Positions 53,688 to 56,584 of a DNA stretch of 64,000 bases are shown here, piece by piece (the first letter of the stretch is position 1; the number at the start of each line of letters is the position of its first letter). The stretch is from Natrinema sp. DC36 (GTDB lineage Archaea; Halobacteriota; Halobacteria; Halobacteriales; Natrialbaceae). The notes under the pieces are model-generated. The model was not told where the DNA came from and did no database searches. It was given only the letters and a program-made list of their open reading frames with translations. The position numbers and the translations under genes were made by a program. The DNA lies in NCBI RefSeq assembly GCF_020405225.1, contig NZ_CP084472.1:434001-498000 (forward strand), read 5' to 3'.

Positions 53688-54431
53688 CTACTGACCGCCG
53701 GTTTCGTCCGCGTACGACGGTCGCTCGGCGTACTCGATCGGGTCGCGAACGCCGATGGTCTGGAACGCCTGCAGCCGGAACGCACACGAATCGCAGGTGC
53801 CACAGGCGGGTTCGTTCTCGCGGTAGCAACTCCAGGTGTGCTCGTAGGGGACCTCGAGTTCGACGCCGCGCTCGGCGATGTCGGTCTTCGAGTCGTCGAC
53901 GAAGGGGGCTTCGATCGAAATTTCGGTCTCGGGTTTCGTCCCGACGTCGACGACCGTCTCGAAGGCCTCGAAGAACTCGGGGCGGCAGTCGGGATACCCC
54001 GAGAAGTCCTCGCTGTGGGCACCGATGAAGACGGCCTCGCAATCGTTCGCTTCGGCGTAGGAAACGGCCATCGAGAGCAAGTTCGCGTTCCGGAAGGGGA
54101 CGTACGACGAGGGGATCTCGTCGCTCTCGAGGTCGGCGTCGTCGACCGCCATTTCGTCGTCGGTGAGACTCGAGGCCCCGATCGCCGACAGGTGGTCGGT
54201 CTCGAGTCGCAGAAAGTCTGCCGCGTCGAACTCGTCGGCGAGCCGGCGCGCGCACTCGAGTTCGCGATCCTCCGTTCGCTGGCCGTAGGAGGTGTGCAGC
54301 GCGTAGATCTCGTAGCCCCGTTCGCGGGCCTCGGCGGCGGCGGTGGCGCTGTCCATGCCGCCCGAGAGAAGGACGACGGCTCGTTTGGCGGTCGATTCGT
54401 CGGTCGCGGAGTCGATGATCGTCTCGGTCAT
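53688..54431 (-). CDS. queC: 7-cyano-7-deazaguanine synthase QueC
   Basis: A 247-residue enzyme that turns 7-carboxy-7-deazaguanine (CDG) into preQ0 with ATP and ammonia. The PP-loop RAVVLLSGGMDSATAAAEA is clear, YGQRTEDREL follows, SYVPFRNANLLSMAVSYAE and FIGAHSEDFSGYPDCRPEFFEAF are typical, and the Zn site is WSCYRENEPACGTCDSCAFR with four Cys. PreQ0 feeds archaeosine in tRNA of archaea. Last gene of queD-queE-queC. Start at 54431 (MTETIID). Confidence 0.95.
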   Translation of the reverse strand: MTETIIDSATDESTAKRAVVLLSGGMDSATAAAEARERGYEIYALHTSYGQRTEDRELECARRLADEFDAADFLRLETDHLSAIGASSLTDDEMAVDDADLESDEIPSSYVPFRNANLLSMAVSYAEANDCEAVFIGAHSEDFSGYPDCRPEFFEAFETVVDVGTKPETEISIEAPFVDDSKTDIAERGVELEVPYEHTWSCYRENEPACGTCDSCAFRLQAFQTIGVRDPIEYAERPSYADETGGQ

Positions 54432-54451: not shown

Positions 54452-55288
54452 TTACGTCTCGGGGGCGTCGTTCCAGAGGTCGACGTGCAGTCGCGGCGTG
54501 TACCGAAAGCCGTACTCCATCGCGAGGTCGGCGACCCGGTTGCGGGTCTCTGCGAGGCGCTCCCGAGTCGCCCCTTCGGGCATCAAGAGCACGTCGTCGT
54601 CGCTGATCGGAGCCTCGGCAACGGTGCGGAGCTCCGCGAGCAGGTCGAGGATCTCCGACATGTCCTCGGCGTCGGTCACGACGAACTTCAGTTGAACGTC
54701 GTAGTCCTCGACCAGTCGAGCGAGCGCATCCATATCGATTCGGTCGCTCTCGTGGCGTGCTTCCCACTCGCCCTCCCCTTTGGGATCGCGCTCCGCCGTC
54801 GGCGTGCTGCTCTCGAGTTTCGGGCTCACGGAGGCGAGGTCGATCGGCGCGTCCCGGTAGATCGTCCCGTTGGTCTCGACGGTGGTGTGATAGCCGCGCT
54901 CGTCGAGCGCCTCGAGCAGGGCGACGCTCTCCTCGTGAATCAGCGGTTCGCCGCCGGTGAGGACGACGTGATCGGCGTCGTGGGACTCGATTTCCGCCAT
55001 AATTTCCTCGAGCCCCAGCCACGCGTGGGTCGGCTCCCACGAGGTGTGATAGGAGTCGCAGAACCAACACCGGAGGTTACAGCCGCTCGTCCGGACGAAC
55101 ACCGAGGGGACGCCGGCGAGCGTTCCCTCCCCCTGCAACGAGTAGAACAGTTCGTTGATCGGAAGTCCCTCGGTAGAACCACCGTCCCCGGCGTCGGCTT
55201 CGGTTGCGTTCTCGGCCGCAGTATCGGCCGCAGTATCGGCAGCAGCATCGGCCGCGTTCTCGAGATCGACCGAATCGGAAACCGGCAT
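54452..55288 (-). CDS. queE: 7-carboxy-7-deazaguanine synthase QueE
   Basis: A 278-residue radical SAM enzyme that turns 6-carboxytetrahydropterin into CDG. The CxxxCxxC cluster is C70-x3-C74-x2-C77 in TSGCNLRCWFCDSY; NELFYSLQGEGTLAGVPSVFVR is the family start, and HVVLTGGEPLIHEE the SAM-binding GGEP. An unusual N-terminal leader of about 40 Ala/Asp/Glu residues (ADAAADTAADTAAENATEAD) is encoded by imperfect DNA repeats; it looks disordered. Middle gene of the operon; its stop is 20 bases before queC. Confidence 0.94.
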   Translation of the reverse strand: MPVSDSVDLENAADAAADTAADTAAENATEADAGDGGSTEGLPINELFYSLQGEGTLAGVPSVFVRTSGCNLRCWFCDSYHTSWEPTHAWLGLEEIMAEIESHDADHVVLTGGEPLIHEESVALLEALDERGYHTTVETNGTIYRDAPIDLASVSPKLESSTPTAERDPKGEGEWEARHESDRIDMDALARLVEDYDVQLKFVVTDAEDMSEILDLLAELRTVAEAPISDDDVLLMPEGATRERLAETRNRVADLAMEYGFRYTPRLHVDLWNDAPET

Positions 55289-55289
55289 C

Positions 55290-55769
55290 TCAGAACTCGC
55301 TTCCTCCGCAGAGTTCGTGCGTCTCGCTGACCTGCACGGAAACGTCGGTGACCGTCTCGGGCAGGGCCGCCTCGAGTTTCCGCTCCATGATCACGCTCAT
55401 CACCTCGGCCGTCGGCGGGTGCTCGAGGACGACGACGGCATCGTCGTCGCCGGCAGTCTCGAAGGCCTCGACGAGGGGGTCGCCGGCCTCGAGCAGGAAC
55501 ACGTGGTCCCACTCGGATATTACGTCAGTAATATCTCCCTTGTCGGCGATCCATCCCTCCTCGGTCAGGCGGCCCGCGACGGTGACGGCGACCTCGTAGT
55601 TGTGTCCGTGGGGTCGCGAACACTTGCCGTCGTGATGTCTGATCCGGTGACCGGCGCTGATTCTGATCGGTCGGTCGCGGCCGACGTGGAGGACGCGGCG
55701 GCTCCCGACGACACCATCGTCCGCCGTGGCGGCCGATCCGGATTCGCGGCTTTCGACTGGTTTGGTCAT
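55290..55769 (-). CDS. queD: 6-carboxytetrahydropterin synthase QueD
   Basis: A 159-residue QueD/PTPS-family enzyme that makes 6-carboxytetrahydropterin from 7,8-dihydroneopterin triphosphate. Ligands: His41 (SAGHRI), Cys50 (GKCSRPHGHNY), His54 and His56 (RPHGHNYEV), as in QueD. DKGDITDVISEWDHVFLLEAG and HPPTAEVMSVIMERKL are the expected strands and helices. First gene of queDEC; its stop is one base before queE. An 18-bp palindrome sits just upstream of its start. Confidence 0.94.
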   Translation of the reverse strand: MTKPVESRESGSAATADDGVVGSRRVLHVGRDRPIRISAGHRIRHHDGKCSRPHGHNYEVAVTVAGRLTEEGWIADKGDITDVISEWDHVFLLEAGDPLVEAFETAGDDDAVVVLEHPPTAEVMSVIMERKLEAALPETVTDVSVQVSETHELCGGSEF

Positions 55770-55775
55770 ATTCAG

Positions 55776-55793
55776 GTATTCTCAAGAGAATAC
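55776..55793 (-). promoter_or_regulatory. Perfect palindrome GTATTCTCAAGAGAATAC at the queDEC promoter
   Basis: An 18-bp inverted repeat (8-bp arms, AA centre) lies six bases before the queD ATG (55769), overlapping the expected leaderless start. On the minus strand a TATA-like TTTAAGTA ends right at it. Position and symmetry fit an operator for a repressor of queDEC. The regulator could be the HTH protein encoded 220 bases upstream. Confidence 0.6.
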
Positions 55794-55992
55794 TTAAAGA
55801 TGGCCGATCACGGACGGCCAATAGGATCAGCGTCGACGAAGGGGCGGTTCCCGGCAACGAGGGACGGCGTCAATCGGTGACAAAGCAGCGAGGACCCGGT
55901 ATCGAAGCCGTCGTCGTACGGTCTGCTGTACCGGTGCACTGGAGCAATCGTAGAACGGTTCGCAGTTGCTCCGGAACTGATAACAGTCCGTA

Positions 55993-56349
55993 TCAGTCCT
56001 GGAGTTGATCCTGGAGCCGGTTTTTCGCCTCGGTGCGACGCTTGCGCGAAAACTCGGGCACGTCGTCCGAGAAGTCGATCTCGATCTCGTCGAGCGTGCG
56101 TCGGTAGATGTTCGTTCGTCGTCCTTCATCGGAGAGCTGTCGGCCCTCGCAGGTCAACAGCCCGGCGTCCACGAGCTCTTCGATTCGACGATAGCAGGTC
56201 GCGATCGGAATCTCGATCGCTTCGCTCAGTGATTGGGCTGATTTCGGCGTTCCCGCTGCACAGAGTATTTCTGCACTGTATTTGTTGCCTAGCGCGGAGA
56301 GCACCGAGGTCGAATCCGCGTCCGTTCGTTCCGTCCGACTGCGAGACAT
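55993..56349 (-). CDS. Winged-HTH transcription regulator
   Basis: A 118-residue regulator with a winged helix: SVLSALGNKYSAEILCAAGTPKSAQSLSEAIEIPIATCYRRIEELVDAGLLTCEGRQLSDEGRRTNIYRRTLDEIEIDFS, like ArsR/HTH_20-type haloarchaeal proteins. IATCYRRIEEL is the recognition helix. It is upstream of queD on the same strand with about 220 bases between, and a stem ACTGATA/TATCAGT (55976-55997) spans its stop codon. It may regulate itself or queDEC. The first Met at 56373 is possible; the one at 56349 begins MSRSRTERTD. Confidence 0.83.
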   Translation of the reverse strand: MSRSRTERTDADSTSVLSALGNKYSAEILCAAGTPKSAQSLSEAIEIPIATCYRRIEELVDAGLLTCEGRQLSDEGRRTNIYRRTLDEIEIDFSDDVPEFSRKRRTEAKNRLQDQLQD

Positions 56350-56584
56350 ACTCCGCTCGTTATCAATTACCATAATTGAATCTTATGGTTGTTGCGAGTT
56401 ACACGTTATACTGAATTATTCGCTCAATTACCAATCCTCTTCGTAGAGTGTTATTACGGCTACAACTACTGCGATATCAACCGATAGCGTAGACGACCGA
56501 GGCGGCGGTCCCGCTCGAAGCGTGGTGTATCCGTGCGTCGGCGAGGGCGAGACGCATTTGAGGTCCCGGCTCGAACGAGCCGGT

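Follow-up and report, generated by a model that had tools for sequence, protein, structure and literature searches.

What controls the synthesis of preQ0, the precursor of archaeosine, in haloarchaea? The question is raised by the queDEC operon of Natrinema sp. DC36, whose products make preQ0 and whose first gene is preceded by an inverted repeat. We found no report of archaeal control of archaeosine-precursor genes in the literature searched. The operon lies in the 64-kb window (the whole stretch of 64,000 nucleotides analysed here) in the order queD-queE-queC, its genes being separated by 1 and 20 bases (Table 1). A sequence-only reading of the window had described the repeat as a perfect 18-bp palindrome; on re-reading the sequence its letters and position are correct, but the central AA is unpaired, so that it is an interrupted palindrome of the form 8-2-8, with 16 of 18 positions paired in two perfect 8-bp arms around a 2-bp spacer. 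Our analysis indicates that this palindrome is a conserved promoter element and most likely the operator of queDEC, and that the neighbouring winged-helix (HTH) protein of the CsmR family is likely its regulator and the leading candidate for that role.

Table 1. Features of the queDEC locus (positions are those of the window)
Feature	Coordinates	Strand	Remarks
Promoter dyad GTATTCTC-AA-GAGAATAC	55776..55793	.	putative queDEC operator
TATA-like element TTTAAGTA	55791..55798	-	overlaps outer arm of promoter dyad; conserved in 67 unique Natrialbaceae promoters
queD	55290..55769	-	PTPS-family 6-carboxytetrahydropterin synthase; transcript predicted to begin at the ATG or beside it
queE	54452..55288	-	radical SAM, 7-carboxy-7-deazaguanine synthase
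queC	53688..54431	-	7-cyano-7-deazaguanine synthase; TIGR00364 above cut-off
Intragenic dyad GATATTAC-GTCA-GTAATATC	55516..55535	.	queD codons 79-85; rare codons conserved across haloarchaea
Winged-helix (HTH) gene	55993..56349	-	queDEC-linked CsmR subfamily; candidate regulator
Conserved element CCATAAGATTCAATTATGGTAAT	56366..56388	-	just upstream of the HTH gene

Most haloarchaeal transcripts start at the start codon, and their promoters carry TTWT TATA boxes and a WW -10 element (PMC4983044). In the queD sense the promoter reads CTTTAAGTATTCTCTTGAGAATACCTGAATATG, in which the TATA-like element, already noticed in the sequence-only reading, continues into the outer arm of the dyad. The dyad follows the TATA box immediately, at -24 to -7 from the start codon, and six bases separate its inner arm from the ATG (55769), as had been claimed. 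The spacing between the TATA box and the ATG fits a leaderless transcript, which we predict to start at or next to the ATG, and the dyad would then sit between the TATA box and the transcription start. Like archaeal repressor operators, it is a conserved dyad that overlaps or follows the TATA box at a fixed distance from the start, and in a leaderless promoter a dyad at this place is best read as a repressor operator. Control by a preQ1 riboswitch, as in bacterial queuosine genes, would act on the same biosynthetic pathway, but such riboswitches are RNA elements of a leader, and no leader is expected at queD. An Rfam search for a riboswitch at queD gave no match at E values up to 1, as the leaderless layout would lead one to expect, and we rejected this candidate.

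Taken alone, the dyad hardly exceeds chance expectation: 7 perfect 8-2-8 inverted repeats, mostly GC-rich, occur in the window against 0-3 in shuffled copies, and the queD dyad is one of only two AT-rich inverted repeats in it (spacings 0-4). It rises above chance because it is conserved at a fixed spacing and is nearly unique in the genome. All of the 30 nearest queD loci have a promoter of this kind at the same spacing, most of them with the dyad, and among 80 named genomes almost every Natrialbaceae locus has a queD promoter of this kind with that spacing. Within this family the palindrome is present upstream of orthologous queD genes, 6 bp before the start and overlapping the TATA box; outside it the full form is generally absent. 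In an alignment of 67 distinct Natrialbaceae queD promoters, conservation is strong over most of columns -28 to -19 and -12 to -7, and a T at -1 is invariant (67/67); sequence above -41 is near random, and the rest of the intergenic DNA diverges. The pattern TTAAGTATTC-N6-GAATA, with up to two mismatches, matches queD in 10/10 Natrinema-type genomes and otherwise gives a few scattered weak matches, so in these ten genomes it is essentially unique to queD. The upstream regions of tgtA and arcS in eight genomes contain no similar dyad, and co-regulation of these two genes was rejected. In other haloarchaeal families the full dyad is mostly gone, but its ATG-proximal half is kept at an unchanged distance, as GATAATCT or something close to it; GATAATCYNNGRRTATG falls on queD in most genomes where it is present.

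Additional copies of pathway genes were seen in some genomes. Genome G003 has a second queDEC cluster (L070, G003:C1:3857498-3857911) whose promoter contains the dyad-like GTATTACCCGAGTAATC. Genome G165 has TGT-like genes beside a second queD (G165:C1:1120490-1124826), possibly a DNA 7-deazaguanine modification cluster, and genome G058 (L080 2770-3928) has, away from its queDEC operon, a second queC that adjoins the HTH gene and a gene for a CheW-like protein.

The sequence-only reading had named the winged-HTH gene just upstream of queDEC, on the same strand, as a possible regulator. Its coordinates hold, and the start at 56349 is preferred over the longer ORF start at 56373 since relatives have in-frame stops in that stretch. 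The product of about 118 aa carries an HTH_20 domain, and its structural model (pLDDT 80) combines a winged helix with additional strands and a C-terminal helix. The best solved match of the model is Phr (2P4W), the ArsR-like heat-shock repressor of Pyrococcus furiosus, although Phr is longer, is only 16% identical and has other targets. Four Haloferax genomes each contain a single strong homologue, 57% identical over 103 aa and directly upstream of two archaellin genes; csmR is likewise found beside archaellins in Haloferax (PMC13286277). CsmR (HVO_1209 of Haloferax volcanii) has a winged-helix and beta-sheet fold with Phr 2P4W as its nearest solved structure, and it binds semi-palindromic sites beside TATA boxes, with the motif TATCA(N4)TGATA (PMC13286277). 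Judged by homology to the Haloferax gene upstream of arlA1/arlA2, through which the two proteins were compared, and by a modelled fold to which Phr 2P4W is again nearest, the protein of the window is a member of the CsmR family. Its neighbourhood with queDEC is constant while the other flank varies, being occupied by cinA at 54 loci and by che genes at 13. Against a role in queDEC control, orthologues occur in 5/6 Natrialbaceae that lack queD.

Within Natrialbaceae the HTH gene is conserved beside the palindrome, and neither outcome named in the sequence-only reading as refuting its idea, absence of the palindrome at orthologous queD genes or of the HTH gene nearby, was observed there. Outside this family the gene usually lies elsewhere. 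Among 159 distinct haloarchaeal queD promoters, strong dyads (at least 7/8 pairs) were found in 42/72 with an adjacent HTH gene versus 3/87 without, and the scores of the latter group are close to those of shuffles (about 2%). In Natrialbaceae alone, outer arms with at least 5/6 pairs occur in 61/69 promoters with the gene versus 8/20 without (Fisher p about 3e-5, ancestry ignored), and the association between linkage and dyad is confounded by shared ancestry. Halostagnicola has cleanly lost the HTH gene from between cinA and queD, and its dyad is broken (2-3/6 outer pairs). Four genomes of a Natronococcus subclade also have no HTH orthologue at all, and these keep the outer arms GTATTC..GAATAY (5-6/6 pairs) with only 0-1/3 inner pairs; two HTH-positive Natronococcus have 3/3 inner pairs, and their dyad, GTATTCGCCGGCGAATAC, is fully symmetric with a changed centre. 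Our reading that the loss in Natronococcus excluded the HTH protein as regulator was revised after the 159-promoter survey. Halorubellus-type loci and some Halostella have the gene adjacent and a poor dyad, which counts against the HTH protein as binder. Overall, the picture fits binding by the HTH protein and would also accommodate a second factor or a core-promoter constraint.

The element directly upstream of the HTH gene is probably the gene's own control site. CCAYAAGATTCAATTYTGATAAT gives one match per genome, at the HTH gene, in 9/11 genomes searched. It is strongly conserved and was also seen in families with the HTH gene beside che genes. Both this element (AAGATTCAANNNTGATAAT) and the published CsmR motif (PMC13286277) match the queD dyad poorly, the motif being TATCA-N4-TGATA and the dyad TATTC-N6-GAATA. 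The TCA(N4)TGATA part of CCAYAAGATTCAATTYTGATAAT is closer to the CsmR motif than the queD dyad is, and this is a point against identical recognition. The idea that the upstream gene encodes the regulator is strengthened by its co-occurrence with the dyad and weakened by the HTH-less Natronococcus and by the differing element in front of the gene.

Two other accounts of the dyad have to be weighed. It could be a constrained core promoter (TATA box, -10 region and start) with no dedicated regulator, its symmetry being a by-product of two AT-rich elements. The arms do share bases with both the TATA box and the -10 region, the ATG-proximal half is conserved in families without the dyad, and paired positions in the promoter alignment covary no more than column conservation predicts. 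Since covariation did not exceed expectation, we do not put it forward as proof of symmetry, and the single compensated cases at L065 and L264 serve as illustration only. We nevertheless consider this account improbable, given that the G/C positions within the arms are conserved, that the pattern is all but confined to queD in the ten genomes, and that sliding the right arm by one position or more lowers the mean number of pairs from 6.1/8 to at most 3.2. The dyad could instead serve another haloarchaeal regulator encoded elsewhere, with the HTH neighbour simply inherited with the locus. That the outer arms persist in Natronococcus without the gene agrees with this, as does the finding that most haloarchaeal families with no linked HTH gene carry a GATAAT-type half-site at this same position relative to the ATG. 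Yet strong dyads track HTH linkage and are gone in Halostagnicola, where the gene was lost, and no other recurrent regulator gene was found near queDEC, which leaves an unlinked regulator rather unlikely.

A further account concerns the protein rather than the site: it may be the family's CsmR itself, a regulator of motility and cell shape, with queDEC as one member of its regulon. The identity to the Haloferax gene upstream of tandem archaellins and the che genes adjoining the HTH gene in several genera speak for it. However, a tree of 93 family members separates the queDEC-linked genes from the archaellin-linked ones (support of the queDEC-linked group 0.64, modest), and genome G156 has both kinds. 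The archaellin neighbourhood and co-occurrence typical of CsmR are not found for the queDEC-linked gene, which is present in 8 archaellin-less genomes and absent from 6 with archaellins. Since it persists without archaellins, it is not simply a motility gene. Archaellin promoters, in a crude scan, also lack such a dyad, and we regard identity with CsmR as highly improbable.

To return to the operator reading, we give about even chances to the full proposal that the dyad is the queDEC operator, that it works in repression by occlusion, and that the CsmR-family neighbour is its likeliest binder. A protein dimer bound at the dyad would block TBP/TFB or RNA polymerase and so repress the operon; the position of the site suggests repression rather than activation. 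The dimer would most likely be formed by the winged-helix protein encoded just upstream, and preQ0 or another pathway signal would be a speculative guess for any ligand.

A second dyad, a perfect 8-4-8 repeat, lies inside queD, 259 bp downstream of the promoter dyad. Its rare codons (GAT ATT AC. ... GTA ATA TC) are conserved across haloarchaeal families. Of the sequences with Ile at position 80, 106/112 use ATT (background 13%), and GAT encodes Asp 79 in 108/131 (background 17%); GTA or ATA is frequent at positions 83 and 84, against a background of about 3%. This six-codon stretch is more constrained than any other in queD, with the strongest synonymous constraint of the gene, and lies well above everything in queE and queC. 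Intragenic dyads with at least 7 pairs occur in 30/155 sequences, while none of 300 synonymous simulations gave more than 10. They are more frequent where the HTH gene is linked (21/70). Because the sequences are related, these counts exaggerate the number of independent events. In a genome-wide search of ten genomes, the best match to this dyad is the queD site itself in most of them. The two dyads show uneven helical phasing, but it is clumped by ancestry and was not used as evidence. An auxiliary operator is a natural guess for this element, though a speculative one. The more elaborate proposal that a dedicated CsmR paralogue controls preQ0 synthesis through both the promoter dyad and the intragenic one, which the choice of rare codons would conceal in queD, perhaps by looping or cooperative binding, seems to us unlikely.

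The queD dyad and its HTH neighbour provide a concrete putative operator and a concrete candidate regulator, a relative of which was characterised recently. The genera that lost the HTH gene are natural experiments for the proposal. The intragenic element points to a DNA-level constraint within an enzyme gene across haloarchaea. The findings also suggest that a family of motility regulators has a metabolic branch.
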